From the NCBI GenBank assembly GCA_002083775.1, contig MTEI01000003.1:248001-312000 (forward strand): DNA of 64,000 nucleotides, given 5' to 3'. Each line of letters begins with the position of its first letter. Positions within the stretch are counted from its first letter, which is position 1. A program made the position numbers and the translations under genes. This stretch comes from Rhodoferax ferrireducens (GTDB lineage: Bacteria; Pseudomonadota; Gammaproteobacteria; Burkholderiales; Burkholderiaceae_C). This document shows, in pieces, positions 41,130-62,287 of this stretch. Under the pieces are notes generated by a model that saw only the letters and a list, made by a program, of their open reading frames with translations, made no database searches and was not told the DNA's origin.

Positions 41130-41140
41130 TCTTTTGAGCT

Positions 41141-43913: not shown

Positions 43914-43963
43914 CGCACGTGAAGGCCGCTACTTGTAGCAGCTACATCAACGCCACTAAGACA

Positions 43964-43993
43964 AGGCGACTACGTGAAGGCGACGACGTGAAG
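43964..43993 (+). repeat. Short tandem repeat
   Basis: ACGTGAAGGCG occurs twice head to tail at 43972-43993, with AAGGCGACT just before and a further ACGTGAAGGC at 43917. It lies in the non-coding stretch 43914-44168 after fbpC. Confidence 0.6.
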
Positions 43994-44009
43994 GCGGTTG
44001 GCGTTCTTC

Positions 44010-44083
44010 GGCTGTCGTGCCGGACCTGATCCGGCATCCATGCCCCCCGGACTGCATGGATTGCGGGTCGGAGCCCGCAATGA
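44010..44083. repeat. Palindromic intergenic repeat, copy C
   Basis: TGTCGTGCCGGACCTGATCC, then GGCATCCATGCCCCCCGGAC, ending GGGTCGGAGCCCGCAATGACA. The same start and end words occur at 41034-41129, and the TGCCGG..TGATCCGG arm also at 30711. It lies between convergent fbpC and mmsA, so it may act as a bidirectional 3' structure. Confidence 0.75.
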
Positions 44084-44168
44084 CAGCCATTTTTCATGCG
44101 TTTGAGGTGGCTTTGCGGCAATGCGCATCAGCCCGCAGACACAGGCCCGGCAAGGCCTGTGCCGCTCC

Positions 44169-45677: not shown

Positions 45678-45690
45678 GAGGGGTTTCCAG

Positions 45691-45744
45691 AAATAGTTAT
45701 AAAAATGGCTTCTAGCCCTTTATATATAAGGGCTGATAGCTATC
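45691..45744. repeat. GATAGCTATC-family repeat between aminotransferase and mmsA
   Basis: AAATAGTTATAAAAATGGCT, TCTAGCCCTTTATATATAAG and GGCTGATAGCTATC. The centre AGCCCTTTATATATAAGGGCT is a near-perfect dyad and the ends (ATAGTTAT, ATAGCTAT) also pair. It fills most of the 89-base gap of the operon. Confidence 0.75.
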
Positions 45745-45766
45745 GTATTAAAAGTAAAAGGTGTGA

Positions 45767-47116: not shown

Positions 47117-47186
47117 GGGGCCTCCTTGAAGGTGTGCGAGAGTAAACGCTGGCGCAGCCAACGGGCAAAGCGCGATTGTGTGGGGC

Positions 47187-47203
47187 ATCATTACTCTTAT
47201 GAT
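47187..47203. promoter_or_regulatory. Candidate LysR-type operator between aminotransferase and lysR genes
   Basis: ATCAT-N7-ATGAT is a perfect dyad in the 118-base divergent region, 31 bases before the lysR start. LysR proteins usually bind AT-rich dyads in such places. Specific binding is inference. Confidence 0.45.
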
Positions 47204-48176: not shown

Positions 48177-49441
48177 ACCAGCTGCTGCACGATGCCAGCG
48201 GCCTGAATGCCGGCATTGTGGTGATCTTTGTGCTGGTGTATGCGGGCATGGTGCTGGGCGGCCTGCCGCACGTCAAGCTCAACCGCGCTGGTGTGGCGCT
48301 GCTCGGGGCCATTGGGGTCATTGGCATGGGTGCCATCAGCACCGAAGACGCCGCCCGCACGGTGGACCTGCCCACCATGCTGCTGCTGTTTTCGTTCATG
48401 GTGGTGTCGGCGCAAATGCGGCTGGGCGGCTTTTACGTGGCGGTAACGCGCAGGGTGGCCGCCTTGCGACTGGGGCGCAACGGGCTGCTGGGAGCGCTGA
48501 TTGGGGTGTCTGGCGCGCTGTCGGCCATCTTTTCCAACGACATCATCTGCCTGGCCATGACGCCGGTGGTGGTGCAGCTGTGCCTGCAGCGGCAGTTGAA
48601 CCCGGTGCCTTTTCTGGTCGGATTGGCCTGCGCGGCCAACATTGGCTCGGCGGCCACGCTCATCGGCAACCCGCAAAACATGCTCATTGGCTCGGTGCTG
48701 CAACTGCATTTTGGCGACTACCTGCGTCAGGCGCTGCTGCCGGTGGGCCTGAGCCTGGCGGTGTTGTGGGCCTGGCTGGTGTGGGGGCCACAGCCGCGCA
48801 CCGCTGGCATCACCGCCACCGCCGTGGGCCAGGGCGCGGCGCTGCCCGAAGGCCTGGGGCCGCTGCAGTCGCCACCGTTTGATGCCTGGCAAACCACCAA
48901 GGGCCTGCTGGTGGCGGGGGCGCTGGTGGGGGTGTTTTTGTTGACCGACTGGCCGCGCGAGGTGGCGGCGCTGGTAGGTGCCGGGGTGCTGCTGCTGAGT
49001 CGGCGCTTTCATTCATCCCACGTCATGGGTTTTGTGGACTGGGAACTGCTGGTGCTGTTTGCCGGGCTGTTTGTGGTGAACCACGCCTTTGCCAGCACCG
49101 GGCTGGCCAGCGATGCGGTAACGCTGCTGGCCGCCCAGGGCATGCATCTGAATGAGCCCGGGCCCTTGTTGGTTGCCGGGGTAGTGCTATCCAATTTGGT
49201 ATCTAACGTGCCCGCGGTGATGCTGCTGCTGCCGCATGTGCAAGGCCCGCAGGCGGGGCTGACGCTGGCGCTGGTGAGCACCTTTGCCGGCAATTTGCTG
49301 CTGGTGGGCTCCATTGCCAACCTGATCGTGGTTGACCTGGCAGAAAAAAGCGGCGTGCTGATCGACTGGCGCGACCATGCGCGCATTGGCGTGCCGGTGA
49401 CGCTGTTGTCGTTGGCGGTGGTCTGGGCCACTTTGCGATAA
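48173..49441 (+). CDS. SLC13/ArsB-NhaD superfamily anion permease
   Basis: A 422-residue protein with about 11 membrane segments. The conserved hairpin SAIFSNDIICLAMTPVVVQL and, in the second repeat, LSNLVSNVPAVMLLLPHV carry the Asn-containing ion-binding loops of the ion transporter superfamily (citrate, arsenite, Na+/H+ types). AANIGSAATLIGNPQNMLIG is another hallmark. The likely cargo is an organic anion; coupling with the upstream LysR gene suggests a carboxylate linked to the aminotransferase pathway, which is inference. Confidence 0.82.
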   Translation: MNQLLHDASGLNAGIVVIFVLVYAGMVLGGLPHVKLNRAGVALLGAIGVIGMGAISTEDAARTVDLPTMLLLFSFMVVSAQMRLGGFYVAVTRRVAALRLGRNGLLGALIGVSGALSAIFSNDIICLAMTPVVVQLCLQRQLNPVPFLVGLACAANIGSAATLIGNPQNMLIGSVLQLHFGDYLRQALLPVGLSLAVLWAWLVWGPQPRTAGITATAVGQGAALPEGLGPLQSPPFDAWQTTKGLLVAGALVGVFLLTDWPREVAALVGAGVLLLSRRFHSSHVMGFVDWELLVLFAGLFVVNHAFASTGLASDAVTLLAAQGMHLNEPGPLLVAGVVLSNLVSNVPAVMLLLPHVQGPQAGLTLALVSTFAGNLLLVGSIANLIVVDLAEKSGVLIDWRDHARIGVPVTLLSLAVVWATLR

Positions 49442-49512
49442 CGCTGACCACAAATGGCGCTGGGGGCAGCGTGCGTGTGCGTGACATGGATCAATCGGCC
49501 TGACGCGTTTAA

Positions 49513-49526
49513 TTGATTTGTATCAA
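49513..49526. promoter_or_regulatory. Perfect FNR/Anr-type site upstream of the Mrp-Ehr operon
   Basis: TTGAT-TTGT-ATCAA matches the FNR consensus TTGAT-N4-ATCAA at all ten positions. About 28 bases downstream is AATATAAG (49552-49559), a plausible -10 element, giving a start near 49565 and placing the site around -42 to -46, as at FNR-activated class II promoters. The mnhE start codon is at 49668. It predicts induction without oxygen. Confidence 0.75.
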
Positions 49527-49667
49527 TAAGCGCCTAAATTCGCTCGGCCAGAATATAAGTATGGACTACTTAAAAGCGGGCGGCTTTTCCAGCGCGAGCC
49601 CCTCACCAGAAGCTCCCAGCGTCTTGGGTGGCTTATTTCCCCACACACTTGTACGAGGGCTCGCAGC

Positions 49668-50165
49668 ATGAGCAGAACACGCGAATTTGTTGTGCTTTTT
49701 GGCACGCTGCTGATTTTCTGGGTGCTGTTGAACAACTCGGTGGCGGGTGATGTGCTGCTGGTGGGTGCGGTGGCGGCGCTGGTCATCACGCTGATGTTCA
49801 ACAACGGCTTGGGTTTGTTTTCGGAATTTCGTTTCACCCCCAAGGCCATTTTGATGGTGCCGGTGTTTTTGGCCTACTTTCTGAAAGAGTTGGTCAAGTC
49901 CAACCTGAAGCTAGCCACCGTGGTGTTGTCGCCCGAGTTGCCGGTCAAACCCGGCATTGTCAAGGTGCACACCAAGCTCAAAAGCCGCATGGGCCGCCTG
50001 CTGTTGACCAATTCGATCACCCTCACGCCCGGCACGCTCACCGTGGACATCGTCGGGCAAGACCTGTACATCCACTGGGTCACCGTGGAGTCGGTGGATA
50101 TTGACGCAGCCACCGCCAGCATCGTGGCCGGCTTTGAGCACTATCTGGAGGTCATGTATGGTTGA
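49668..50165 (+). CDS. mnhE: Mrp/Mnh antiporter subunit E-like protein
   Basis: A 165-residue membrane protein with two or three N-terminal helices (VVLFGTLLIFWVLLNNS) and the soluble C-terminal part VKVHTKLKSRMGRLLLTNSI, TLTPGTLTVDI that marks MnhE. In Mrp antiporters it is an accessory subunit of the Na+/H+ exchange module; homologues occur in membrane-bound hydrogenase and sulfane reductase complexes (MbhA/MbsA). It is the first gene of the twelve-gene operon, following an FNR-type site, and overlaps the next gene by 8 bases. Confidence 0.92.
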   Translation: MSRTREFVVLFGTLLIFWVLLNNSVAGDVLLVGAVAALVITLMFNNGLGLFSEFRFTPKAILMVPVFLAYFLKELVKSNLKLATVVLSPELPVKPGIVKVHTKLKSRMGRLLLTNSITLTPGTLTVDIVGQDLYIHWVTVESVDIDAATASIVAGFEHYLEVMYG

Positions 50166-50418
50166 ACTGCTGGTTTCTGTGGCCGCAGCGATCACGGGGG
50201 TGGCGTTTTTGCTGGCCTTGTACCGCTTTCTGAAAGGCCCGTCGGTGGCGGACCGGGTGGTGGCGTTTGACGTGATGACCATTGTCGGCATCACCGCCAT
50301 CGTGTTGGTGGCCTATCTGGAAGGGCGCGGCATCTACCTGGATGTGGCGCTGGTGTATGCCCTGCTGTCATTCCTGGGGGTGATTGTGGTGGCGCGTTAC
50401 ATCGAGAGGGGGTTTTGA
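50158..50418 (+). CDS. mnhF: Mrp/Mnh antiporter subunit F-like protein
   Basis: An 86-residue protein with three membrane helices and the family segment YRFLKGPSVADRVVAFDVMT. It starts at the ATG at 50158 inside the end of mnhE. An in-frame ATG at 50101 would overlap mnhE by 65 bases and add a poor N-terminus, so I reject it. It is a small scaffold subunit of the antiporter module. It overlaps mnhG by four bases. Confidence 0.92.
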   Translation: MVELLVSVAAAITGVAFLLALYRFLKGPSVADRVVAFDVMTIVGITAIVLVAYLEGRGIYLDVALVYALLSFLGVIVVARYIERGF

Positions 50419-50756
50419 TGGACTCTGCACTCGATCTGCTGGGTGGCTTACTGCTGGTGTTTGGTGCCCTGTTTTTGCTGCTGGGCGGTTTGGGGCTGGT
50501 GCGTATGCATGACGTGTTCAACCGTATCCAGGCTGGCACCAAAGCCACCACGCTGGGCACCATTGCCACACTCGGCGGCATGGCCTGCTTGCAGCCAGAC
50601 TGGGCATTGAAGCTGCTGCTGATTGGTCTGTTCATCCTGCTGACCAACCCGCTGTCATCGCAGGTGATGGCCCGCTCGGCTCACCGCACCGGCAGCCACA
50701 AAACCTCCAAAACCGTGGTGGACCGTCTGGCCGAAGACACGGGAGAGCCACTATGA
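50415..50756 (+). CDS. mnhG: Mrp/Mnh antiporter subunit G-like protein
   Basis: A 113-residue protein with three helices and the MnhG signature LGLVRMHDVFNRIQAGTKAT. It forms part of the membrane module with E and F. ATGA overlaps join it to both neighbours, pointing to one translation unit. The C-terminal 25 residues are charged and cytoplasmic. Confidence 0.92.
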   Translation: MMDSALDLLGGLLLVFGALFLLLGGLGLVRMHDVFNRIQAGTKATTLGTIATLGGMACLQPDWALKLLLIGLFILLTNPLSSQVMARSAHRTGSHKTSKTVVDRLAEDTGEPL

Positions 50757-51022
50757 GCGGCGTGATGACGATGATGATGGTGGTTCTGTGCGTGGCCATG
50801 ATTGGCGCTGCGCTGCTGGCCATCAAGGGCAAGAGCCTGCCGATCGCCATTCTGGCGGCCGGGCTGGTGAGTCTGGTGGCCTCGGTGGTGTTTTTGATCA
50901 TGGCTTCGCCCGACGTGGCCATGACCGAAGCAGCCATTGGCAGCGGATTGACCACTTTCCTGTTTTTCTTTGTGCTGGGCCGCGTGCGCGCCGGTGAGCA
51001 AGATGGAGACAGCCATGATTAA
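50753..51022 (+). CDS. DUF4040/MbhD-like membrane subunit
   Basis: An 89-residue, two- to three-helix protein with GKSLPIAILAAGLVSLVASV and MASPDVAMTEAAIGSGLTTF, the conserved part of the DUF4040 domain found at the MrpA C-terminus and as MbhD in energy-converting hydrogenases. Here it is a separate gene, as in Mbh/Mbs-type complexes rather than canonical Mrp antiporters. It overlaps the mnhB-like gene by 8 bases. Confidence 0.88.
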   Translation: MSGVMTMMMVVLCVAMIGAALLAIKGKSLPIAILAAGLVSLVASVVFLIMASPDVAMTEAAIGSGLTTFLFFFVLGRVRAGEQDGDSHD

Positions 51023-51713
51023 GCGTTTTCTGGCGCTGCTGCTGGTGCTGGGTCTGGGCAGTATTTTTGCCAGCCTGCTGTTGGGCTACACGCCAGACCA
51101 GGTGCTGAACCTCACCGCCAATTACTACGCAGCCAACACCGCGCGTGACATCGGCTCGGCCAACATCGTGACCGCCATTGTGGTGACGTACCGGGGGCTG
51201 GACACGCTGGGCGAGGTCACCGTGCTGTTCCTGGCAGCCACGGTGGTGGGCCTGGTGCTCACGCTGGGTGACAAAAAGGTCGGCAAACCGCACGGCTTGG
51301 TGCCGGTGGGGGAACTGCTGACGACTGGCGCGCGCTTTCTCACACCGCTGATCATGCTGCTGGGCGTGTATGTGTTTGTGAACGGGCATCTGACACCCGG
51401 CGGTGGTTTCCAGGGCGGGGCCATCATTGCTTCGGGCACCTTGCTGCTGCTGCTGGCAGACCCCATGAAACATTTCAGCCACAAACTCATTGCCACGCTG
51501 GAGTCCATAGCCGGTGTGACGTATGTGGGCGTGGGTTTGCTGGGGCTAGTGCTGGCGGGTGGGTTTCTGGACAACCGTTTCCTGCCCATCGGCACGCTGG
51601 GCGCACTGTTTTCAGCCGGTGCCATTCCGGTGATTTATTCGCTGATTGGCCTGAAGGTGGGGGCTGAGCTGTCGTCCTTGCTGGCCAACCTGTCCGAGAC
51701 GGAGGAACTGTGA
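51015..51713 (+). CDS. MbhE-MnhB fusion subunit
   Basis: A 232-residue protein from the ATG at 51015. Residues about 1-85 resemble the MbhE/MrpA C-terminal segment (ARDIGSANIVTAIVVTYRGL, DTLGEVTVLFLAATVVG). Residues about 95-232 are an MnhB domain (FLTPLIMLLGVYVFVNGHLT, PGGGFQGGAIIASG). A single gene for both is found in several Mbh/Mrp-like operons. It overlaps the preceding gene by 8 bases and mnhC by four. Confidence 0.88.
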   Translation: MIKRFLALLLVLGLGSIFASLLLGYTPDQVLNLTANYYAANTARDIGSANIVTAIVVTYRGLDTLGEVTVLFLAATVVGLVLTLGDKKVGKPHGLVPVGELLTTGARFLTPLIMLLGVYVFVNGHLTPGGGFQGGAIIASGTLLLLLADPMKHFSHKLIATLESIAGVTYVGVGLLGLVLAGGFLDNRFLPIGTLGALFSAGAIPVIYSLIGLKVGAELSSLLANLSETEEL

Positions 51714-52069
51714 TGGCTTACATGGCAATGGCGACCGGCTTTCTGCTGATCCTGATTGGTTTTTATGGCGCTTTGACGCAGCGTAACCTGCTGCGCATGA
51801 TTGTGGCTTTCACCGTGGCTGATGCCGGGGTCAACCTGGTGATCATTGCCGTGGGGTACATGAGCGGGCGTACCGCCCCTATCCTGGACAACACCCTGCA
51901 GGCGACCGACGCGGTGGCCCGCATCATCGACCCGGTGCCGCAGGCGCTGGTGCTCACCGCCATCGTGATTGGTGTGGGGGTCACGGCCATGATGTTGGCC
52001 TACGCCTACAAGCTGTATGAAAAGCGGCGCACGCTCGACATTGCGCAACTGACGGAGCTGAAATGGTAA
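51710..52069 (+). CDS. mnhC: Mrp/Mnh antiporter subunit C-like (NuoK-like) protein
   Basis: A 119-residue, three-helix protein with LIGFYGALTQRNLLRMIVAF and QALVLTAIVIGVGVTAMMLA, the NuoK/MnhC pattern. In complex I and Mrp this subunit carries conserved carboxylates in the ion path; the acidic residue in VADAGVNLVII may correspond. It joins antiporter-like subunits to the connecting module. The stop overlaps the start of the large subunit. Confidence 0.9.
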   Translation: MMAYMAMATGFLLILIGFYGALTQRNLLRMIVAFTVADAGVNLVIIAVGYMSGRTAPILDNTLQATDAVARIIDPVPQALVLTAIVIGVGVTAMMLAYAYKLYEKRRTLDIAQLTELKW

Positions 52070-55000
52070 GCGCTCTCTACATATTGGCAGCGGCTCTGGC
52101 CGCCGCTTTCCTGCTGGGCTTGCTCAAGCAAGGCAGCCACCGCACGGCTTACGGTATCACGCTGGCGGCATTGGCGTTCATGAGCTTTGTCTCCGCCAGC
52201 TGGCTGTTGGGTTTTGTGTCGGGCACGGCCGTACCGGCCGAGATTTTTACCGCTGGTACCGAGCCACCGTTTGCCATCAACCTGCGTATGGGTCTGGCAG
52301 AAGCTGCCCTGACCACGCTGGTCACCATCACCGGCCTGCTGTCCGCCATCTACTTGAAAGAAGCCCTGTTCAAGCTGGGTCACCGCACCATGGCGATTCT
52401 GCTGGTGGCGGTGATGGCGCTGTGCGGCGTGATCCTGACACGTGACATCTTCAACCTGTTTGTGTTTTTTGAGCTGATCGTCATCTCCACTGCAGGGTTG
52501 GTACTGTTGTCGGAAGATGACCGGGCGCTGTCGGCGGGGTTCAAGTATTTGATCGTCTCGCAGGTGATCTCGGCGCTGCTGCTGATCGGCATCATCTTTG
52601 CCTACCACGCCACTGGCACGCTCAATATTGACGGCATGGCCGAGGCCTCGCTGAACCTACGAGCAGGCGGCATCGCGGCCTTCTTTTTCATGTTCATTGC
52701 GGTGTCTGCAGAGCTCAAGCCCTTTCCAGCCAACGGTTGGGCGCTAGACATTTATGAGTCCGCCCACCCGGCATTCTCGGCGATTTTCTCGGCTGCGACC
52801 GGTGCAGCGGCTTTGTATGCGGTGGACAAACTGCTGCTGATTGGGGGCCCACAGTGGTTGCCACTGGCCACTGGCATGGGGTTGGTGACCTTTGTGGCCT
52901 CCAACCTGTTTGCCTTGGCGCAAACCAATGACCGCCGCTTGCTGGGGTATTCGTCCATCGCACAAACCGGCCTGGTGCTGGTGGCGCTGGGCCAGCGCGA
53001 CATTCTGGGTGACGCCACGCCGTTTGTGGCGTTTGGCCTAATGATTTCGCACGCAGTCGCCAAGGCAGGCATGTTCTGGTTGTCCGGGCTGGTGGCGGGC
53101 CGCCAACTCACCGATTGGACCGCGTTGCGTGGCCGCCCGCTGCTGATTTTTGCCTTTGTGACCTTTGCCGCCATGTTGTCCGGCTTGCCGCCTTTCCCCG
53201 GTTTTTATGCCAAGTGGGAACTGATGCGCGTCCTGGCAGGTGAAGGTCGTTTGGCACTTATGGGGCTGATTTTGTTTGGTGCCCTGACGGAAGCGGGCTA
53301 CCTGTTCCGCTGGTTTGGCTACATCATCAAACGCGAGCAGACCGCCGAGCCGGTGGACTGCGTCAAAAACCGTGTTTTACCGGTGTTTGTGGCCCTGTTG
53401 GCAGGCTGGGGGCTGGGGTTTGTCTGGGGCGATCTGTCTGGCCATGGCAACCTGTTGCTGAGCTTGCCGCTATTGTTTGCCTTGTCGTTCCTGCTGCTGG
53501 ATTGGCTGCCCGCCTGGGTCAAGAACATCGTCGCCATCGTTGGCATGGTGGTGTTTTTCTACCTGACCTGGGGCGAATACACGCCGCTGCAACTCATTTT
53601 TGCCATCATCTTCCTGATTGGCGGGCCCATCACCCTGCTGGCGAGTTTTGATGCGCACGGCAAACGCATGGGCTTTTACCCGGCGGCCATGTTGATGTAT
53701 GCCGGGCTGATTTTGCTGGTGCGCGCCACCAGCACGTTTGAGTTTTTTGCCGCCTGGGAATTCCTGACCGTGGGTTCTTACCTGCTGATTTTGCGTGGCA
53801 AGAAGTCGGAGCCGCATGCGTTGTCGTACATCGTGTTTTCTCTGGCCGGTGCGTTTTTGATTTTGGCCGGGTTTGCGTTGGCAGCAGATGGTGCACCGCA
53901 GTTTGCGGTGACCGGATTAAGTTTGCTCAACGCCCCGGTCGCCCCATGGGTGTTTCTGCTGCTGGCGGTTGGTTTCATGACCAAGACCGCCGCCATTGGC
54001 CTGCATATCTGGCTGCCCGGCGCCCATGCCGAGGCAGAAACCGATGTGTCGCCGATGGTCTCAGGCATCTTGCTCAAGGCGGGGCTTTATGGGCTGTTCA
54101 TCCTGTTGATCAATATGGGCAAACAGCAGCTTTTCGGCATGGAGCTCACCCACGGGCTGCTGTGGGTGGCGGCGCTCACCGCCTTGTTGGGTAACCTGAT
54201 GGCGATCTTTCAGGAAGATGCCAAGCGGCTGCTGGCGTATTCCAGCATCGGCCAGATGGGCTACGCCATGTTTGGCCTGGCGCTGATGAACCATTTGGGC
54301 TGGTTGATGGCGCTGATGTTTGTCATCAACCACTACATCTACAAAGCCATGTTGTTCCTGGCCGTGGGTGGTGTGGCCAAGCGCACCGGCACCCGCGACA
54401 TGTACCGCATGGGTGGTTTGATCACGCTGATGCCGCTGTCGTTTGTGGCCACGCTGATCGGCATCATCGCCGTGTCGGGTGTGCCGCCGCTGTCTGGCTT
54501 TGGTGGCCGCTGGATTTTCTACAACGCTATTTTGAGCTCGGACCAGCGCCTGCCGATGGTGATTCTGTTCCTGGCCGGTCCGATTGCTTTCTTGTATCTG
54601 TTCCGCCTGATCCACACCATCTTTCTGGGCCAGCTCAAGGATGAATTGCGCCGCGTGAAAGAGGCACCGTTCTGGGTGGTGCTGCCGCAGATGATTTATG
54701 TGGTGTTGCTGCTGGCCTTTGCGCTATTCCCCGGCATTGCGCTGCGCCGGGTGGACACCTACCTGAATGAATTTTTCCCGCAGGGCGGGCTGGATTGGAG
54801 CGGGGCCGACATTGTCAGCAATTACGGTTACTGGAACCCCATTGCCATCATGATCATTGTGGCGGTGATCTTCCTCACCTTGCTGGGCTGGCTGATGTTT
54901 GTGGACCGTGGGGCGCAAAAGGTCAAGCAGTTCAACATCGTGTTTTCAGCCGAGCGCCCTTACCGGCCGGAAACCACCCACTTTGCCTGGAACTTTTTCG

Positions 55001-55188
55001 CCCCTTACCGCAAGGCGCTGGGTTTCCTGGTGAAACCGGTGGCCACGATGTTTTGGACCACGGTAACGGACGTGCTGCACACCGGGGCCGACATCGGGCG
55101 GCGTTGGTACACGGGTAATGGCCAGAGTTACGCCATCCACTTCCTGATCTTTGTTCTTGTTGCCTTCATGTTCAAGGCAGGAGCTTAA
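52063..55188 (+). CDS. Double antiporter-like subunit (two fused NuoL/M/N/MnhD domains)
   Basis: A 1041-residue membrane protein made of two proton-translocating modules. Module 1 (about 1-490) has the key Glu137 in NLFVFFELIVISTAG and Lys209 in VSAELKPFPANGW. Module 2 (about 500-960) repeats the pattern with FFAAWEFLTVGSYLL, VGFMTKTAAIGLHIWLPGAH and MVSGILLKAGLYGLF, plus the broken-helix SGVPPLSGFGGRWIF. The final 80 residues form a helix and a cytoplasmic tail. In Mrp and Mbh the two would be separate or one would be MrpA-like. Two pumping modules in one chain suggest more than one ion moved per cycle. ATG at 52063 overlaps the mnhC stop. Confidence 0.9.
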   Translation: MVSALYILAAALAAAFLLGLLKQGSHRTAYGITLAALAFMSFVSASWLLGFVSGTAVPAEIFTAGTEPPFAINLRMGLAEAALTTLVTITGLLSAIYLKEALFKLGHRTMAILLVAVMALCGVILTRDIFNLFVFFELIVISTAGLVLLSEDDRALSAGFKYLIVSQVISALLLIGIIFAYHATGTLNIDGMAEASLNLRAGGIAAFFFMFIAVSAELKPFPANGWALDIYESAHPAFSAIFSAATGAAALYAVDKLLLIGGPQWLPLATGMGLVTFVASNLFALAQTNDRRLLGYSSIAQTGLVLVALGQRDILGDATPFVAFGLMISHAVAKAGMFWLSGLVAGRQLTDWTALRGRPLLIFAFVTFAAMLSGLPPFPGFYAKWELMRVLAGEGRLALMGLILFGALTEAGYLFRWFGYIIKREQTAEPVDCVKNRVLPVFVALLAGWGLGFVWGDLSGHGNLLLSLPLLFALSFLLLDWLPAWVKNIVAIVGMVVFFYLTWGEYTPLQLIFAIIFLIGGPITLLASFDAHGKRMGFYPAAMLMYAGLILLVRATSTFEFFAAWEFLTVGSYLLILRGKKSEPHALSYIVFSLAGAFLILAGFALAADGAPQFAVTGLSLLNAPVAPWVFLLLAVGFMTKTAAIGLHIWLPGAHAEAETDVSPMVSGILLKAGLYGLFILLINMGKQQLFGMELTHGLLWVAALTALLGNLMAIFQEDAKRLLAYSSIGQMGYAMFGLALMNHLGWLMALMFVINHYIYKAMLFLAVGGVAKRTGTRDMYRMGGLITLMPLSFVATLIGIIAVSGVPPLSGFGGRWIFYNAILSSDQRLPMVILFLAGPIAFLYLFRLIHTIFLGQLKDELRRVKEAPFWVVLPQMIYVVLLLAFALFPGIALRRVDTYLNEFFPQGGLDWSGADIVSNYGYWNPIAIMIIVAVIFLTLLGWLMFVDRGAQKVKQFNIVFSAERPYRPETTHFAWNFFAPYRKALGFLVKPVATMFWTTVTDVLHTGADIGRRWYTGNGQSYAIHFLIFVLVAFMFKAGA

Positions 55189-55191
55189 GCC

Positions 55192-56097
55192 ATGGCTTTC
55201 GACTGGATGAAAATTCCCTATGCGTTGCTGACGCTGTTCATCGTCATCAACTACGGCTTCCTGATGGGTGCCTTTGTGCAGAAAATCGCGGCCCGTGTGG
55301 GGCGCCGCCATGGCATCCCGATCTGGCAATACTACGCTGACGTGATCAAGAACTACGGCCAGCGTACCTCCATTACCCACGGAGTGATGTTCTACATGGG
55401 GCCGGTGTTTCGGTTGTCGGGTGGTGTGGGTCTGCTGCTGTTTGTGCCGACCATTTACGGCTCTTACATGTTTTCCAACATGTCGTTCGCCGGTGATCTG
55501 ATCCTGGCGCTGTACTTCATCTTTTTTGGCACGCTGGGCATGGCACTCGGTGCCGGTGAGAGCGGTCACCCACATGCCGCCATGGGCGTGTCGCGCGGGT
55601 TGTCATTGGTGAGCACCGCCGAGCTGCCGTTTGCGCTGGCCGTGTTTTCCGTCGCCTTGCAGTACCAAAGTCTGTCTGTCACCGAGATTGTGGCGGCCCA
55701 GCAGGGTGGTGTGTTGAATTGGACTGTGTTCACCAACCCTTTGGCAGTGGCCGCAGCCATGTTGTCGTTTTTGGGTTCCATGATGCGCCCGCCGTTTGAT
55801 CTGGTGATTGCCCCGCAGGAAATCCCGATTGGCCCGCCCACCGAATTCCATTCCTCCTACCTGGCGCTGATGCAGACCAACCGGGCGCTGTTCCCGGTGG
55901 CCAAGGTGGTGATTTACATGAACCTGTTTTTTGGCGGTGCCACCGACTGGCCGACGTTTTTCCTGAAAGTGTTCCTGATCTATCTGTGGGCCGCTTTTGT
56001 GGGCGTGGTGTTCCCGCGTTTTCGGGTGGAGCAAGCGGTGCGCTGGTTCCTGATCTGGGCCGTGCCGATTGGCATCCTTTCCATCGTCCTGGTGTAA
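55192..56097 (+). CDS. NuoH/EchB-like membrane subunit
   Basis: A 301-residue protein with eight hydrophobic segments. The conserved cytoplasmic loop GRRHGIPIWQYYADVIKNYG and the later MMRPPFDLVIAPQEIPIGPP, EFHSSYLALMQ are the NuoH/EchB/MbhM signatures; the acidic loop near the end of the E-channel follows. It connects the soluble redox arm to the antiporter modules. Start follows the double subunit after 3 bases. Confidence 0.92.
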   Translation: MAFDWMKIPYALLTLFIVINYGFLMGAFVQKIAARVGRRHGIPIWQYYADVIKNYGQRTSITHGVMFYMGPVFRLSGGVGLLLFVPTIYGSYMFSNMSFAGDLILALYFIFFGTLGMALGAGESGHPHAAMGVSRGLSLVSTAELPFALAVFSVALQYQSLSVTEIVAAQQGGVLNWTVFTNPLAVAAAMLSFLGSMMRPPFDLVIAPQEIPIGPPTEFHSSYLALMQTNRALFPVAKVVIYMNLFFGGATDWPTFFLKVFLIYLWAAFVGVVFPRFRVEQAVRWFLIWAVPIGILSIVLV

Positions 56098-56104
56098 GAA
56101 GCAT

Positions 56105-56746
56105 ATGAAAGAAGAACTCAAAATCCGCGTCGTCAAGGGGCCGGACGGTACCACCTTCGAGGTGGACCCGATGCGCGACTACTTCTGTGAGGCCGCGCCT
56201 TCGGTGCACGCCCCGGCGTATTCCAAGATTGTGGAAGACCTGTTCAACTGGGCGCGCTCGCGCTCCATCTGGATCCTGGGCTTTGGCACCGGCTGCGGTG
56301 CGATTGAAATGCGCCCGCTGATGACCCCGCGTTTTGACGCTTACCGGTTTGGCATTGCCTGGCGGCCCACACCGCGCCAGGCCAATCTGCTGGTGATCTC
56401 GGGCTACCTGTCCACCAAAACCCTCAAACGCGCCATTCGCACTTACGAACAGATGCAAAGCCCCAAATACGTGGTGGGGCTGGGTTCCTGCACCATCAAT
56501 GGCGGCATGTACTGGGACTCTTACAACACCATCAAGCGGCTGGATGACTACATGCCGGTGGACCTGTACATCACCGGCTGCATGCCGCGTCCCGAAGCGT
56601 TATTGCAGGGTTTTGAAGACCTGAAAAAACTCATTCGCGCTGGCAAGGCCGAAGGGGCCAACCAGTACGCCGAAAACTTTGCCTGGTACAAAGAAAACCA
56701 AAAGCGTGTGATCCACGACTGGGACATGCCGGACTACAACTGGTAA
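56105..56746 (+). CDS. NuoB-like small subunit with an altered N2 cluster motif
   Basis: A 213-residue soluble subunit of the NuoB/HycG/MbhJ family. The cluster ligands are Cys64 in GTGCGAIEMR, Cys129 in VGLGSCTINGGMYW and Cys159 in ITGCMPRPEAL. Where NuoB has tandem CC and hydrogenase small subunits CxxC, residue 65 is Gly, so only three of four usual cysteine ligands are present. An extra Cys28 lies near the N-terminus. The terminal electron carrier is therefore either a cluster with a non-Cys ligand or something else. The start at 56105 follows the nuoH-like stop by 7 bases; a start at 56069 would overlap it. Confidence 0.9.
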   Translation: MKEELKIRVVKGPDGTTFEVDPMRDYFCEAAPSVHAPAYSKIVEDLFNWARSRSIWILGFGTGCGAIEMRPLMTPRFDAYRFGIAWRPTPRQANLLVISGYLSTKTLKRAIRTYEQMQSPKYVVGLGSCTINGGMYWDSYNTIKRLDDYMPVDLYITGCMPRPEALLQGFEDLKKLIRAGKAEGANQYAENFAWYKENQKRVIHDWDMPDYNW

Positions 56747-56756
56747 GGACAAGACC

Positions 56757-57287
56757 ATGCAACACCTCCATGCCAGGCTGAGTGCGCTGTTTCCGCTGGG
56801 TGAATTCACCCCGCAGCGCGACAAACTCGGTTTTTTGACCGTGCCCCAATCGCATTTGCGCGCCGTAGCCACCCACCTGCGCGATGTTGAGGGTTTTTCT
56901 CACTTGGTGCTGTTGACCGCGGTGGACTGGCTTGAAGAAGGCCAGTTTCAGCTGACCTATTTGCTGTGCAACCGTTTGGCGCGGTTGGATCTGGGCCTGC
57001 GGGTGTTTTTGCCGCGCGAGGCGGCCACCATGGACAGCATTCACGACCTGTGGCCCACCGCAGCCACCTACCAGCGTGAACTGCGGGAGATGTTTGGCAT
57101 TGACTTTCCCGGCAGCCCGCGCTTGGCAGAAGAGTTCATTCTGGAAGGCTGGATCGACATTCCGCCCTACCGCCGCGATTTCGACACCAAAAAATTCGCC
57201 GCCGAGAACTTCAGCCAGCGCCCGGGCCGCGTGACGCATGACCCGGCTGCGCACATGAAGCAGCAACTCTACCCCGGTGGGCTCTGA
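56757..57287 (+). CDS. NuoC-like 30-kDa subunit
   Basis: A 176-residue protein with the NuoC fold: FSHLVLLTAVDWLEEGQFQL in place of the usual Asp-Tyr start of the domain, then the family signature YQRELREMFGIDFPGSPRL and the WIDIPPYRRDF end. In complex I the subunit braces NuoB and NuoD; homologues occur in group 4 hydrogenases and related complexes. It ends just before the NuoD-like start (the ATG is at 57289). Confidence 0.9.
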   Translation: MQHLHARLSALFPLGEFTPQRDKLGFLTVPQSHLRAVATHLRDVEGFSHLVLLTAVDWLEEGQFQLTYLLCNRLARLDLGLRVFLPREAATMDSIHDLWPTAATYQRELREMFGIDFPGSPRLAEEFILEGWIDIPPYRRDFDTKKFAAENFSQRPGRVTHDPAAHMKQQLYPGGL

Positions 57288-57288
57288 T

Positions 57289-58467
57289 ATGGATTACTTT
57301 GCACCTGACCGCACCCAATACCCGGCCACCAAGGCCGATGGCACGCTGGACATTGACCTGACCTCAGGCAAGTACCTCAAGCTCTGGCAAGGCCCGAATC
57401 ACCCGGGCATCACCGGCAACATGTCGGTGGAACTCACCGTGTGTGGCGACGAAGTGGTAGAGGGCAAAACCCATGTGGGTTACCTGCACCGGGGTTTTGA
57501 GAAGCTGATGGAGCGGCGCATCTTCATCCAGTGTTTCCCGATTGTTTGCCGTATCTGCGTGCCCGAGCCGGACTTCAACGAATACTGCTACGCCGCTGCC
57601 GTGGAAGACCTCGCCGGTATCGAATCACCCGAGCGTGCCAACTGGATCCGCGCCTTGATTCTGGAGATGGGCCGCATCAACAGCTACCTGATGTACCTGG
57701 GCGGCCAAGCCGGTGCCTTGGGCCTGGGGGTGATCGGCCAGTGGACGACCTATGTGCGTGATCTGATGCTGGACCGCTTTGAGGAACTGACCGGTGCCCG
57801 CATCTACCATATGTTCATCATCCCCGGTGGCGTGCGCGACGGCCTGCCTGAGGGGTTTGATGCGCGCATGGAAGAGACCTTGCGCGAGATTGAGCGCACC
57901 ATGAAAGACGTGTGGGATGTGATGTTTTGCAACGCCGTCTTCAAGAAGCGCACCGTGGGCCTGGGCGTGATCGACAAGGCCTGGCTGGAGCCCTATGGCG
58001 TGACCGGCCCCAACGCCCGCGCGGCGGGTGTGGCCAAAGATGTGCGCAAGGACGACCCGTACCTGATCTACGACCAGCTCGACTTTGAGGTGCCACTGGG
58101 CACGGATTCCGACATCTTCACCCGCTCGGACGTGCGCAGGCGCGACGTGCTGGTGTCGGTAGACCTGGTGCGCCAGATGCTGGCCAAAATGCCACGCACT
58201 GGCGCGGTGGCCTCGCCCACGCCCAACGTGCTGCACTGGAAGATTCCACGCGCCGAGACCTATGTGCGCGGCGAGTGCTCGCGCGGCGAATATGGCTACT
58301 ACCTGGTGACCGACGGCAGTGGTTACCCGCGACGCGTCAATGTGCGTGGCCCGTCTTACACCCACGCCATGGCGTTGCTGGAACGCATGATCGTGAACGT
58401 GAACATTTCCGATGTGGCGGCCCTGATGGTGTCGTTACACACTTACCCGCCCGAGATCGAGAGATAG
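57289..58467 (+). CDS. NuoD/hydrogenase large-subunit-like protein lacking the full NiFe site
   Basis: A 392-residue protein of the NuoD/HycE/MbhL family. N-terminal GPNHPGITGNM (35-45) has Thr where complex I has the quinone-site His in HPxxHG. One CxxC (Cys87, Cys90 in PIVCRICVPEP) lines up with the L1 motif CGIC of hydrogenases, but the histidine after it is missing. At the C-terminus, where hydrogenases have DPCxxC, the protein ends ALMVSLHTYPPEIER with no cysteine. It can neither bind a normal NiFe centre nor reduce quinone in the complex I way. This places it with Ehr/Mbs-like relatives; the substrate is open. Confidence 0.9.
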   Translation: MDYFAPDRTQYPATKADGTLDIDLTSGKYLKLWQGPNHPGITGNMSVELTVCGDEVVEGKTHVGYLHRGFEKLMERRIFIQCFPIVCRICVPEPDFNEYCYAAAVEDLAGIESPERANWIRALILEMGRINSYLMYLGGQAGALGLGVIGQWTTYVRDLMLDRFEELTGARIYHMFIIPGGVRDGLPEGFDARMEETLREIERTMKDVWDVMFCNAVFKKRTVGLGVIDKAWLEPYGVTGPNARAAGVAKDVRKDDPYLIYDQLDFEVPLGTDSDIFTRSDVRRRDVLVSVDLVRQMLAKMPRTGAVASPTPNVLHWKIPRAETYVRGECSRGEYGYYLVTDGSGYPRRVNVRGPSYTHAMALLERMIVNVNISDVAALMVSLHTYPPEIER

Positions 58468-58469
58468 CC

Positions 58470-60272
58470 ATGAGCGTCCGTGATGTCCTCTCACCCTTCA
58501 CCGCCTGGAAAAACGTTTTCCTGGACCCGGTGACCATTCCTGACCCGATCAACGACCGCCCGGGGGCGCCGCGTTACCGGGGTTTTCACAAAAACGATGT
58601 GGTCAAGTGCATTGGCTGTGGCACCTGCGAAACCATTTGCCAAAACGGTGCCATCGACATGGTGCCGGTCGACGGGATTGCCACCAAGCAGGGTGACTCG
58701 GGCTTACGCCCACGCATTGACTACGGCCGCTGCTGCTGGTGCGCGCTGTGTGTGGATGTGTGCATGACTGGCTCGCTGACCATGAGCAACGCCTACACCT
58801 GGGTCGAGGCCGACCCGGACGCCTTCCGCTTTACACCCGGCGTAGACAAAAAAGCCTGGGACAACGCCGAGTTGGGTTACCAGCGCCCCGAAGGCCACCG
58901 CCTGACCGAGCAGGATCGGGTTGAGATGCACGAGATGACCCCCGAGGTGCGCATCAACTCGTTTGCCGAGATCGTCAACGGTTACTCCGTAGAGCAGGCC
59001 AAGCTGGAAGCCGACCGCTGCGTGGCCTGTGGCCTGTGTATTGCTACCTGCCCGACCCACATGTCGATCCCACAGTACATCGCGGCGGTGCGCGATGGCG
59101 ACTACGAGCGGGGTGTGGAGCTGCTGTATGAGACCAACCCGTTCTCGGGCATCTGTGGCCGCGTCTGCACCCACAAGTGCGAAACATCTTGTGCCTCGCG
59201 CCATGAGGGCGACCCGATAGCCATTCGCTGGCTCAAGCGCCACATCATGGACCAGGTGCCGTTTGAGCGCCGCAAGGAACTCGTCGGTGGGGTGCACAAG
59301 AGCGCCACCGGCAAAAAAGTGGCCATCGTCGGCGCGGGCCCTGCGGGTTTGACTGCCGCCTTTGACCTGGCCAAACAGGGTCACAGCGTGACCGTGTTTG
59401 AAGCGCTGGACGCTGCGGGCGGCATGACGCGCTGGGGCATCCCGGAGTACCGACTGCCTTACGACGTGATTGACGAAGACGTGGACATCATCCGCTCGGT
59501 GGGGGTAGACATCCGCTGCAATATGCGCGTCGGCCAAGACATCAGCTTGGATCAGTTGCACCAGGAGCATGACGCGGTGTTGCTCGGCTTGGGCCTGCAA
59601 CTGGGCCGCGCCACGCGCACGCCCGGTAGCGACCACCCGGACGTGCGCAAAGCCGTCGATTTGTTGCGCCAGGCAACTGCCGGTGAAGACTTTGGCACCC
59701 CGCGCGAAGCGGTGGTGATTGGTGGCGGCAACGTGGCGATGGACATTGCCCGCACGCTGGCGCGCTTGCAAAAAGCCCAGTACGGCGCGGTGAAAGTGAC
59801 CTTGACCGCGCTGGAAGACAAGGCGCACTTTTTGGCAGACCCTGAGGAGATCAAAGAAGCCGGCGAGGAAGGCGTGCATATCATTGATGCACGCGGCCCT
59901 CAGCAGGTCGTGGTCGAAGGCGGCAAAGTGGTGGGTTTGAAAACATGGCGTGTGAAAGCCATTTTTGACGAACAAGGCCGCTTTGCCCCGAGTTATGACG
60001 AGTCTGACGAGCAGTTGCACCTGGGCAGCATGGTTGTGGAAGCCATTGGTCAGATGACCGATGCTTCACTTTTGGGTGACGCGCTTACTGAGAAATTGGC
60101 CTGGCAGCGTGGTCGCTTGCAGGTGGACGGGGGTGGCCGTACCAGTGAAGCCTGGTTATGGGCCGCTGGCGACATGGTGCGCGGGCCAGACGTTGTGACC
60201 GCCGTTGCCGACGGGCACCGTGTTGCCGCTAGCATTCACGCCACTTTCACTTCTACGGAGATTTCCGCATGA
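58470..60272 (+). CDS. Ferredoxin-GltD fusion: Fe-S/FAD NAD(P)H-linked oxidoreductase subunit
   Basis: A 600-residue protein. Residues 40-100 are a NuoI-like ferredoxin with two [4Fe-4S] motifs (C47 IGCGTCETIC; C89 WCALCVDVC). Residues 170-235 add the GltD-type N-terminal cluster domain (CVACGLCIATCP at 174; CGRVCTHKCETSC at 219). Residues 274-600 are a two-dinucleotide-domain flavoprotein: FAD motif VAIVGAGPAGLTAAF (275-289) and NAD(P)H motif VVIGGGNVAMDIART (405-419). Such modules (NfnB, GltD) move electrons between NAD(P)H and Fe-S clusters. I start at the ATG at 58470, after the NuoD-like stop; a frame from 58275 would run through that gene. Confidence 0.92.
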   Translation: MSVRDVLSPFTAWKNVFLDPVTIPDPINDRPGAPRYRGFHKNDVVKCIGCGTCETICQNGAIDMVPVDGIATKQGDSGLRPRIDYGRCCWCALCVDVCMTGSLTMSNAYTWVEADPDAFRFTPGVDKKAWDNAELGYQRPEGHRLTEQDRVEMHEMTPEVRINSFAEIVNGYSVEQAKLEADRCVACGLCIATCPTHMSIPQYIAAVRDGDYERGVELLYETNPFSGICGRVCTHKCETSCASRHEGDPIAIRWLKRHIMDQVPFERRKELVGGVHKSATGKKVAIVGAGPAGLTAAFDLAKQGHSVTVFEALDAAGGMTRWGIPEYRLPYDVIDEDVDIIRSVGVDIRCNMRVGQDISLDQLHQEHDAVLLGLGLQLGRATRTPGSDHPDVRKAVDLLRQATAGEDFGTPREAVVIGGGNVAMDIARTLARLQKAQYGAVKVTLTALEDKAHFLADPEEIKEAGEEGVHIIDARGPQQVVVEGGKVVGLKTWRVKAIFDEQGRFAPSYDESDEQLHLGSMVVEAIGQMTDASLLGDALTEKLAWQRGRLQVDGGGRTSEAWLWAAGDMVRGPDVVTAVADGHRVAASIHATFTSTEISA

Positions 60273-60772
60273 GCCAGCCCGTTCGCCGAATTGATGTGTT
60301 GCGCCACACCACCAGCGTGCAAGAAATTCTGGATGTGGCCAACAGTTTTGAGGCCAGCGCCCGCGACTTTTACACCGCGCTGATCCCGAAGGTCAGCAAA
60401 CGCATCCGGTATTTGGTGGAAGAACTGGCGGCAGAAGAACAAGGCCACTTTGACCTGCTGGCCGCCCTGCGTGCGCGTACCGACTTGGCTGAGCAGGTCA
60501 AGCTGCAGATCCAGCAGCCCGCCAGCGACAGCAAGTTTTCAGACTGCATTCACCTGCCCAACTTGGGTGACAACCCGGACGACCAGGCGGTGCTGCAATA
60601 CGCCATGGGCCGCGAACACATCGCCATGACGCATTACACCGAACTGGCGCAAACCGCGCCCGAAGGCCCGATACGCGAGCTGTTCCAGTTTCTCGCCAGC
60701 GAAGAAACCACGCACAAGCTGGAACTGGAGAAGCTCTATTACGAAACCGTCCACCGCGGTGGCGGCGTGTAG
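60269..60772 (+). CDS. Ferritin-like (rubrerythrin-type) di-iron protein
   Basis: A 167-residue four-helix protein. Di-iron ligands are visible: Glu28, Glu57 and His60 (EEQGH) in the first pair, Glu116 (GREHIAM) and Glu146/His149 (EETTH) in the second. No rubredoxin domain follows. Its ATG overlaps the flavoprotein stop (ATGA), so it belongs to the operon. Related proteins reduce peroxide or store iron in anaerobes; receiving electrons from the flavoprotein to protect the complex is one possibility, and a structural or electron-transfer role is another. Confidence 0.85.
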   Translation: MSQPVRRIDVLRHTTSVQEILDVANSFEASARDFYTALIPKVSKRIRYLVEELAAEEQGHFDLLAALRARTDLAEQVKLQIQQPASDSKFSDCIHLPNLGDNPDDQAVLQYAMGREHIAMTHYTELAQTAPEGPIRELFQFLASEETTHKLELEKLYYETVHRGGGV

Positions 60773-60778
60773 TCTGCT

Positions 60779-61171
60779 TCAGTGGGTGGTGTGCTGCTCT
60801 GCCGTGGATGCACTGGGGATGCGTTTGCCGTGTGGCAACTCGTGCAGCCGGCCAAACATGTCGCGGCAGTAGCCGTGAATCTCCAGGCATTTGTTGATTT
60901 CTTCCACCGGCAGTGGGCCTGACACCACCACGATGTCGTTGGCCTGGTCGAGCGCGCCCGAGGCGCGCAGGCGCCGACGCGCGTTGTTGGCCCAGCAGTG
61001 GATGCGGGTGGGGCTGCCGTGTTCGCGCAGGGCACCGGTGCTGGCCTCAAACGCAATGGCCACGGTTTCTGATTTGAGGCGCAGGCGATGTTCACCTGTG
61101 ACCCGGCTGGCAGGCGTGCTCAGGTCATACAGGTGGTAGTGGCCTTCTTTGAGTTGGTATTGCAGTGTCAT
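60779..61171 (-). CDS. Hypothetical protein, unrecognised
   Basis: From the ATG at 61171 (MTLQYQLKEG) the protein has 130 residues with no signal peptide or membrane helix. Visible features are a beta-rich N-terminal half (HYHLYDLSTPASRVTGEHRL), a basic GSPTRIHCWANNARRRLRAS in the middle and a C-terminal SGPLPVEEINKCLEIHGYC helix with two cysteines. I know no family for it. It converges on the ferritin-like gene with a 6-base gap and so is probably not in that operon. Start uncertain: 61192 would add seven residues. Confidence 0.6.
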   Translation of the reverse strand: MTLQYQLKEGHYHLYDLSTPASRVTGEHRLRLKSETVAIAFEASTGALREHGSPTRIHCWANNARRRLRASGALDQANDIVVVSGPLPVEEINKCLEIHGYCRDMFGRLHELPHGKRIPSASTAEQHTTH

Positions 61172-61336
61172 GGCGTCTCCGGTCTTGCTCACTATTTTGC
61201 AGGACGGTCCGGGTCTCTAAAGCCCAAAAAGGTGGTGAAAAGCCATTTTTTTGAAGCATGTCGCCCACGCCATGGCCGAACCTGCAGGCCTGATGACTTT
61301 ATGATGAACCATTAGCAACTCTTATCACCCAGCCCC

Positions 61337-62287
61337 ATGAGTACTTTTGATCCGGCGGCCCTGGAATGCCTGGCGGCCATTGTGGAAGAGGGTGGCTTTG
61401 AGCGCGCGGCGGTGCGCTTGTCGATCACCCAGTCGGCGGTGTCTCAGCGGCTGCGTTCGCTGGAGGTGCAGGTGGGCACCGTGCTGATTGTGCGCAGCCG
61501 CCCGCTCAAAGCCACTCAGGCCGGGCGTCTGCTGCTCAAACATGCCATGCAGATGCGCCTGCTGCGTGCTGACCTGGAGCGTGACCTGAAAGGGCTGTCG
61601 CCGGGCGCAGCGGGTGCCGCGGGTGAAGATGAGCGCATTTCGATCGCCGTCAACGCCGACAGCATTGCCACCTGGACGCTGCCCGCGCTGAGTCCGCTCG
61701 CGCACCAGGGTCTGGGACTGGAGATCATCACCGACGACCAGGACTTCACCTTTGAATGGCTGCGTGAGGGCCGGGTGCTGGGCTGCGTGACCACTTTGCG
61801 CGCGGCGCTGCGCAGTTGCAAGGTGGAGCCGCTGGGTGCCATGCGGTATGTGGCGGTGGCCGAGCCGGGGTTTGCCGCAGGGCGCTGCCCGCAGGGCCTG
61901 AGCCCGCACAACTTCAGCACGCTGCCCTTCATTGCGTTTAACCGCAAGGACGACCTGCAGGCCGAGTTTGTGGCCAGTGCCTGCGGTTTGCGCCAGGTGT
62001 CGCTGAGCCAAATGTATGTGCCCAGTTCCGAGGGGCAGTTGCACGCGGTGCTGGCGGGCTGGGGCGTCAGTGTGCTGCCTGAACTGATGGTGCAAAAACA
62101 CCTGAGGGCGGGCACACTGGTGGACCTGATGCCCGGGCATCGGCTGGCGGTGGCGCTGTATTGGCATTGCTGGAATTTGAACTCGGCGGTGCTCGATGCA
62201 CTGACGCACGCGCTCAAATCTGCAGCAGCGGTGGCCTTGCTGCCGCCCAAGCCCGAGACGAAACCCGTCAGTAATAAAAAAGTCTGA
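61337..62287 (+). CDS. LysR-family regulator, ArgP-like
   Basis: A 316-residue regulator. The N-terminus, FDPAALECLAAIVEEGGFER followed by VRLSITQSAVSQRLRSLE, and LPFIAFNRKDDLQAEF in the effector domain match ArgP/IciA, which senses arginine and lysine and usually controls the LysE-type exporter ArgO. No argO gene lies beside it here, so its target is elsewhere or different. It is preceded by 165 bases without a gene. Confidence 0.85.
   Translation: MSTFDPAALECLAAIVEEGGFERAAVRLSITQSAVSQRLRSLEVQVGTVLIVRSRPLKATQAGRLLLKHAMQMRLLRADLERDLKGLSPGAAGAAGEDERISIAVNADSIATWTLPALSPLAHQGLGLEIITDDQDFTFEWLREGRVLGCVTTLRAALRSCKVEPLGAMRYVAVAEPGFAAGRCPQGLSPHNFSTLPFIAFNRKDDLQAEFVASACGLRQVSLSQMYVPSSEGQLHAVLAGWGVSVLPELMVQKHLRAGTLVDLMPGHRLAVALYWHCWNLNSAVLDALTHALKSAAAVALLPPKPETKPVSNKKV

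Follow-up and report, generated by a model that had tools for sequence, protein, structure and literature searches.

An Mrp-linked operon of Rhodoferax ferrireducens and other Pseudomonadota predicts an MBS/MBX-type complex that may connect NAD(H) with sulfane sulfur

Introduction

The closest described relative of the operon analyzed here is MBS of Pyrococcus furiosus (PDB 6u8y), in which an Mrp-type membrane arm is joined to an arm of NuoH-, NuoB-, NuoC-, NuoD- and NuoI-like subunits. The proximal [4Fe-4S] cluster of MBS is bound by C28, C93 and C123 of MbsJ and its open iron is the proposed catalytic site; MbsJ C25 is too distant from the cluster and is dispensable for catalysis (PMC7684303; articles are cited by PMC number, each for an excerpt). 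Our subject is an operon of 13 genes in a 64,000-nucleotide stretch of Rhodoferax ferrireducens DNA (contig MTEI01000003.1 of GCA_002083775.1, G000:C3:248001-312000 in our genome set), hereafter the window, from a genome of 4.47 Mb in 44 contigs. Judged by its sequence, the operon encodes a complex of the MBS/MBX type and not a new class. It differs from MBS in that H and H' are fused, N is fused to a GltD-type flavoprotein and a rubrerythrin-like gene has been added; its predicted partner is NAD(H), where MBS uses ferredoxin, and its hosts are mostly sulfur oxidizers.

MBS homologs have also been described in bacteria. A twelve-gene mbx operon moved from Thermococcales to Thermotoga (PMC2246101). 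The MBX complex of Thermotoga maritima has 13 subunits, its mbxA gene is up 4.36-fold with S0, and ferredoxin is assumed to be the donor (PMC9431562). The present operon resembles it as an MBS homolog of 12-13 genes in a bacterium, and T. maritima also has a protein of the NF010590 family discussed below; the proposed donor sets the two systems apart. From the sulfur-oxidizing Riftia symbiont, a "putative Mrp-Mbx complex" was reported to be co-expressed with the reductive tricarboxylic acid cycle and not with the Calvin-Benson-Bassham cycle, its function and direction being given as unknown (PMC11636981). This is perhaps the same operon, and the "MrpEFGBBCDD" reported from the Solemya velum symbiont (PMC4287430) may be the same operon read in part. 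An earlier note, made by a model from the window's letters, had proposed a new kind of ion-translocating redox complex; with MBX and the putative Mrp-Mbx complex in print, the claim to a new kind falls. In searches of the open-licence literature, we met no description, from sulfur oxidizers, of the present operon with the GltD fusion. More broadly, the operon falls within Ehr in the wide sense (group 4-like, without Ni and Fe ligands; PMC6349859), and MBS is the narrower fit. Mrp antiporters have a homologous membrane arm, which in the operon is joined to a redox arm; a plain Mrp antiporter was rejected.

Results and Discussion

The large and small subunits are of the MBS type

Among PDB chains, MbsL (6u8y_L) scored highest with the large subunit, at 312 bits, compared with 211 bits for Thermus thermophilus Nqo4 and 122 bits for MbhL. 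The small subunit matched MbsJ at 222 bits, the next chain reaching 135 bits. In a maximum-likelihood tree, ten family large subunits formed a clade with MbsL, the only MBS reference included (support 100/99). This clade adjoined complex I (95/92) and lay apart from MbhL, HycE, HyfG and other proteobacterial paralogs. An ion-translocating redox complex, as the earlier note had it, is supported; a new kind is not.

Like MBS, the family has a three-cysteine proximal cluster site and the RICVPEPD motif, and has neither a NiFe site nor the quinone residues. The positions of the three MbsJ ligands are cysteine in all 73 aligned small subunits, and the position of C25 is G in 69 and A in 4. These residues predict a proximal cluster held by three cysteines with one iron open. 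The two CxxC pairs that bind NiFe in group 4 NiFe hydrogenases and MBH are gone except for a single cysteine, C90 of RICVPEPD, which is kept in 81/81 large subunits (14 of them read R-V-C instead of R-I-C); a hydrogenase was rejected on the loss of these ligands. The quinone residues H38 and Y87 of Nqo4 are replaced by T42 and V91, each invariant in 81/81, and the four-cysteine N2 site of complex I, with its tandem pair, is likewise lacking. Alignment therefore recovered neither a full NiFe site nor a quinone site, and the doubts raised beforehand about H2 and quinone chemistry stand, since both now look unlikely. The same doubt about standard cluster chemistry does not, because a three-cysteine cluster in place of a four-cysteine one is what has been described at the catalytic site of P. 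furiosus MBS (PMC7684303). Separately, NuoD-like proteins with both CxxC pairs, which thus keep intact group 4-type NiFe motifs, occur in the same genus (L012, G023:C114) and in the same order (L011, G039:C1).

The NuoB-, NuoC-, NuoD- and NuoH-like subunits would also suit a complex I variant that reduces quinone or oxidizes quinol with an alternative NADH module. The tree places MBS and the family beside complex I, and the large subunit exceeds the cut-off of the NCBIfam NuoD model NF004739 (382 vs 360 bits), though not that of TIGR01962 (283 vs 459 bits). We regard such a variant as improbable, given that both Nqo4 residues are replaced and the tandem N2 cysteines lost invariantly across the family, and that the window's genome holds a separate NuoD-type match (L001). 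Plain complex I was rejected on the same residues.

The ferredoxin-GltD fusion and the rubrerythrin-like protein

Residues 8-115 of the fusion protein matched MbsN best among NuoI-like PDB chains (81 bits). The rest is GltD-like, and its best chains are named molybdopterin oxidoreductase, formate dehydrogenase-O major subunit and Nfn. Seventeen cysteines are invariant in 72/72 sequences, and 16 of these are in keeping with two clusters of NuoI type and two of Fer4_20 type. NfnB and DsrL-2 bind the phosphate of NADP through a YRR motif, and DsrL-1, which lacks it, prefers NAD(H) (PMC7596348). In the fusion this position reads A-L-E (A in 68, L in 66 and E in 71 of 72), and because YRR is missing from the GltD part, we predict NAD(H) rather than NADP(H) as the partner; ferredoxin might also be used directly. 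The fusion singled out as a novelty in the earlier note is indeed present, but it matches NCBIfam NF010590 (PRK13984, "putative oxidoreductase") over nearly its whole length at 865 bits, below the curated cut-off of 946. A relative in another carrier, G065, scores 1000 bits, and NF010590 is over its cut-off in Thermotoga maritima. By sequence, the protein fits this existing family, whose name assigns no function.

DsrL-1 of sulfur oxidizers with rDsr is also a GltD-type NAD(H) flavoprotein without YRR; its partner is DsrAB (PMC7596348). Two carriers encode DsrL-like proteins, assigned to DsrL on their length and closeness to dsrA, that share about 30% identity with the fusion over residues 192-599 and have no N-terminal NuoI-like match. 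DsrL was rejected on this low identity and on the N-terminal NuoI-like domain of the fusion.

The ligand-type residues of the rubrerythrin-like protein are conserved in an alignment of 63. NF009413, which models GltD joined to a ferritin domain, is matched in one part by this protein and in another by the fusion, a hint that both proteins work together. The bifurcating flavin of Nfn sits in a GltD-type subunit, and by analogy the GltD flavin here could split NADH electrons between the proximal-cluster branch and a high-potential branch formed by the rubrerythrin, an arrangement that the NF009413 matches would favor. We give flavin bifurcation hardly any credence, as none of the 13 operon genes is NfnA-like, four loci with enough sequence to contain the rubrerythrin lack it, and that of L060 is just 29% alike. 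Nfn proper has an NfnA partner and YRR, and the operon has neither.

The membrane arm

In the double antiporter-like subunit, MbsH (6u8y_H) matches residues 3-260 and MbsH' (6u8y_X) residues 507-1034; the subunit is a single open reading frame (ORF) in 57 of 80 loci. Charged residues kept in an alignment of 59 are E138, E219 (D in 4), H330 and K393 of MbsH, with H330 and K393 assigned in the N half by motif and E219 read without the gap of the printed alignment, and E128, K217 (X in one row), K248 and H336 of MbsH'. Two lysines have changed in 59/59: K250 of MbsH has become A, T, S or G, and K399 of MbsH' has become R. Because of these two changes, the ion stoichiometry may be lower, with fewer ions moved per electron pair, and a lower count would suit NADH, with its smaller gap, better than ferredoxin.

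Distribution of the operon

A scan of genome contigs yielded 184 confirmed relatives, and all locus counts refer to the best 80 of these. Large-subunit identity ranged from 77 to 95%. By title, 76/80 loci belong to Pseudomonadota lineages, and four (L056, L060, L069 and L070) are titled only "bacterium". All 13 genes were found in 51/80 loci; by aligned positions, 72/80 keep one order and lack no gene for which their contig has room, so the gene order, which the earlier note proposed to search for in other genomes, is not a chance arrangement. The fusion is one ORF in 71/80 loci. Leaving aside L043, considered below, shortfalls in ORFs reflect contig ends or apparent frame breaks (L059, L047 and L080). 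The rubrerythrin gene lies upstream instead in L075, L077 and L082 and was not found in L056, L069, L078 and L081, although the contigs have room. The four loci titled "bacterium", in which the rubrerythrin is absent, 29% alike or beyond the contig end, may lie outside Pseudomonadota. In a phylum sample, 3/398 genomes were carriers by a 24-base motif that covers R-I-C only and misses R-V-C members.

The operon appears self-contained and horizontally moving. A phage origin was rejected, as none of 26 pattern matches in viral contigs was confirmed, and so was a plasmid origin, all 244 matching plasmid records being below 60% identity; the ten plasmid matches listed had 33-34% identity and were named nuoD or unannotated.

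Carriers are enriched in sulfur oxidation genes

We scored four markers in 80 genomes, namely the window's genome, four same-genus and two same-phylum carriers, 34 more hosts of the 80 loci and 39 genomes presumed to lack the operon. The carriers were taken from a ranked list, and the genomes of 40 of the 80 loci were covered. All 39 presumed non-carriers were checked with the fusion family; one control genome, G065, proved to hold the full operon and was counted as a carrier, giving 42 carriers and 38 non-carriers, 18 of the latter from the window's genus. soxB was present in 36/42 carriers vs 12/38 non-carriers and dsrA in 37/42 vs 7/38. Either gene was found in 40/42 carriers and 14/38 non-carriers (p = 1.1e-8, in a test that ignores shared ancestry), and within the genus in 5/5 and 10/18, respectively. 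RuBisCO of form I/II-like type (our own cut, 380 bits) occurred in 35/42 carriers vs 14/38 non-carriers. In the window's genome, soxB and RuBisCO lie about 7 kb apart on contig C11. The earlier note had left electron transfer between NAD(P)H or ferredoxin and an unknown partner; the NAD(P)H side is supported, and homology together with the co-occurrence of sulfur oxidation genes would narrow the partner to sulfane sulfur.

nifH over its cut-off was also more frequent among carriers (22/42 vs 9/38, p = 0.012). Combined with a low-potential iron-sulfur chain, this could point to an NADH:ferredoxin reductase driven by the ion gradient, for example one serving nitrogenase, with sulfur playing no part. 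We consider it very unlikely. nifH over cut-off is missing in 20/42 carriers, among them the window's genome, where it appears only below cut-off. Strict sigma-54 sites were found in 0/54 upstream regions, compared with 1/265 random 300-base control pieces drawn from the same loci, intergenic and other DNA alike, and the open cluster in its chamber would have no role. Electron supply to nitrogenase as such was rejected on the nifH and sigma-54 results.

Proposed reaction

The reading that we favor, with a confidence somewhat above even, is that the operon product is an ion-coupled NAD(H):sulfane-sulfur oxidoreductase of the MBS type. What the sequences establish is the gene content, the homology, the conserved residues and the distribution; we infer the substrate (sulfur), the coupling, the direction and the choice of NAD(H) over NADP(H), and the 13 gene products would act as parts of one complex. 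Electrons would pass between NAD(H), FAD, the two clusters of Fer4_20 type, the two of NuoI type and a proximal [4Fe-4S] cluster held by three cysteines. In a hydrophobic chamber, the open iron of this proximal cluster would react with sulfane sulfur in the form of polysulfide or of a persulfide/disulfide carrier, while the Mrp-type arm couples the reaction to H+ or Na+ movement. The reaction is probably reversible. At a high ion gradient, NAD+ would be reduced in sulfur oxidizers with electrons from sulfide or sulfane sulfur, bypassing quinone; at a low gradient and with no oxidant, NADH would reduce stored sulfur. The rubrerythrin probably removes peroxide and so would shield the oxygen-labile cluster.

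The potentials quoted in PMC4287430 are -320 mV for NADH and -270 mV for H2S. From this gap of about 50 mV between NADH and sulfur, we infer that the forward yield is too small for two ions per electron pair and that a normal gradient could drive NAD+ reduction. On a narrower account, the complex would be a sulfide/sulfane:NAD+ oxidoreductase, that is, MBS run backwards, in which the ion gradient pushes electrons from persulfide or polysulfide over the step of about 50 mV to NAD+. The loss of the lysine in transmembrane helix 8 of MbsH would have geared the membrane arm down, fitting the smaller gap. We entertain this backwards account only tentatively.

Sulfur respiration in the forward direction alone overlaps with the favored NAD(H):sulfane-sulfur reading; here NADH would reduce stored or imported zero-valent sulfur in the dark or without oxygen, pumping ions, as MBS/MBX presumably does in fermenting hyperthermophiles. 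The core is the same as in MBS, a reductase (PMC7684303). Expression of the T. maritima MBX gene rises with S0 (PMC9431562), and an FNR-like box before the window's operon and seven other loci suggests use at low oxygen. At the potentials quoted in PMC4287430, however, the drop from NADH to sulfur would not cover two ions per pair against a normal gradient, and among DsrL proteins the NAD(H) type goes with sulfur oxidation and the NADPH type with sulfur reduction (PMC7596348). An exclusively forward reaction therefore seems to us rather unlikely.

Several observations weigh against the favored NAD(H):sulfane-sulfur reading. We found no reported activity for any family member in the literature. 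Cys87 of the large subunit is invariant (81/81) and has no counterpart in MBS, nor has an N-terminal extension of about 36 residues with Cys28 on the small subunit (73/73), and MbsL C385 is replaced by Y386 in 81/81; because of these extra cysteines and the lost one, the family chamber is not identical to that of MBS. Cys87 and Cys28 could possibly serve as a fourth ligand or as persulfide carriers. AlphaFold models were weak (mean predicted local distance difference test score 68.7 for the NuoB-like protein and 70.3 for the fusion), and Cys28 could not be placed near the cluster. The two changed antiporter lysines and the NF004739 match count on the same side, as does the neglect of shared ancestry in the co-occurrence test. 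Two carriers, G469 and G479, gave no soxB or dsrA match above the thresholds used, and in the window's genome soxB occurs without a dsrA match. Carriers make up 5/36 of the window's genus set and, by motif, 13/57 of the family of L100, and because they are so few the operon is accessory. Finally, in L043 the genes before nuoB were not found in 4,450 upstream bases. In this Thiorhodovibrio metagenome-assembled genome, the run from nuoB to rubrerythrin without membrane genes is due either to splitting of the operon or to a join made during assembly.

Sulfur-oxidizing autotrophs are usually taken to make NADH by driving electrons from quinol back through complex I, at high cost. A strongly conserved, widespread operon with an MBS-type sulfur site linked to an NAD module would open a direct way between sulfur and NADH that can be tested; if the backwards operation of MBS were true, the long uphill route through quinol and complex I would be replaced by a short step of about 50 mV. 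Carriers span phototrophs, magnetotactic bacteria, Thiothrix, symbionts and groundwater Rhodoferax, and the operon supplies a bacterial, mesophilic MBS relative in which to study catalysis at an open-coordinated iron-sulfur cluster.

Operon layout, upstream region and flanks

The 13 plus-strand ORFs at 49668-60772 are tightly packed, with junctions that are overlaps or gaps of a few bases (Table 1). The unbroken plus-strand unit described in the earlier note is borne out by the ORF list, with 13 genes in place of the twelve claimed; its end is right, whereas 49513, given as its start, is the first base of the FNR-like box. Pfam domains on the 13 ORFs are, in order, MnhE, MrpF, MnhG, MbhD (DUF4040-type), MbhE with MnhB, MnhC/NuoK, double Proton_antipo_M, NuoH, NuoB, NuoC, NuoD, Fer4/Fer4_20/Pyr_redox_2 and Rubrerythrin, which confirms the proposed Mrp-type module, NuoH/B/C/D-like arm, ferredoxin-GltD protein and ferritin-like protein. 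Subunits L, J, H, H' and N were matched to MBS by sequence and the other eight by Pfam family and position, following the MBS order A-E, G, H, H', M, J, K, L, N (PMC7684303). MbsE likewise extends across both membrane modules (PMC7684303).

Table 1. Positions of the operon genes and of the upstream box in the window
Feature	Position	Strand	Evidence or remark
FNR/Anr-like box TTGATTTGTATCAA	49513..49526	.	155 bases 5' of first start codon
MrpE/MnhE-like subunit, inferred MbsA position	49668..50165	+	Pfam PF01899
MrpF-like subunit, inferred MbsB position	50158..50418	+	Pfam PF04066
MrpG-like subunit, inferred MbsC position	50418..50756	+	Pfam PF03334
MbhD/DUF4040-type subunit, inferred MbsD position	50753..51022	+	Pfam PF13244
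MbhE and MrpB in a single protein, inferred MbsE position	51015..51713	+	Pfam PF20501, PF04039
MrpC/NuoK-like subunit, inferred MbsG position	51710..52069	+	Pfam PF00420
Double antiporter-like subunit, N half MbsH, C half MbsH'	52063..55188	+	PDB match
NuoH-like membrane anchor, inferred MbsM position	55192..56097	+	Pfam PF00146
NuoB/MbsJ-like subunit, predicted three-cysteine proximal cluster (C64/C129/C159), N-terminal extension with invariant C28	56105..56746	+	
NuoC-like subunit, inferred MbsK position	56757..57287	+	Pfam PF00329
NuoD/MbsL-like large subunit, motif VCRICVPEPD	57289..58467	+	
NuoI/MbsN-like two-cluster ferredoxin fused to GltD-type flavoprotein, predicted NAD-binding, NF010590-like	58470..60272	+	
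Rubrerythrin-like di-iron protein, no rubredoxin domain found	60269..60772	+	Pfam PF02915

An FNR-like box was present in 8/54 upstream regions, the window included and six of them betaproteobacterial by title, compared with 3/265 of the random control pieces. By eye, a TATAAG-like -10 element lies about 30 bases beyond the box. A promoter scan of 49400-61340 gave a single sigma-70-like site, within the operon, and shuffled sequence gave more. The window gave no match to Rfam at the gathering threshold and none in a tRNA scan.

No fixed neighbor was seen across the loci, as the flank clusters, the largest from 14 and 10 loci, vary in distance and strand. The cluster of 14 resembles a chemoreceptor. 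Directly 3' of the operon in the window, a minus-strand ORF of 137 amino acids (60779-61192) has no Pfam or NCBIfam match and has a relative at the same place in L030, L033 and L035. Elsewhere in the window, a polysaccharide cluster (645-27363) encodes flippase-like, glycosyltransferase, polysaccharide deacetylase and UDP-GlcNAc 2-epimerase proteins, as well as an exosortase with DUF3485, an AAA protein and Poly_export, and is adjoined by an IS66 family transposase (28672-30246). The region at 39906-47191 carries ABC importer genes (solute-binding protein, permease and an ATPase with TOBE), followed on the minus strand by an aldehyde dehydrogenase and a class III aminotransferase.

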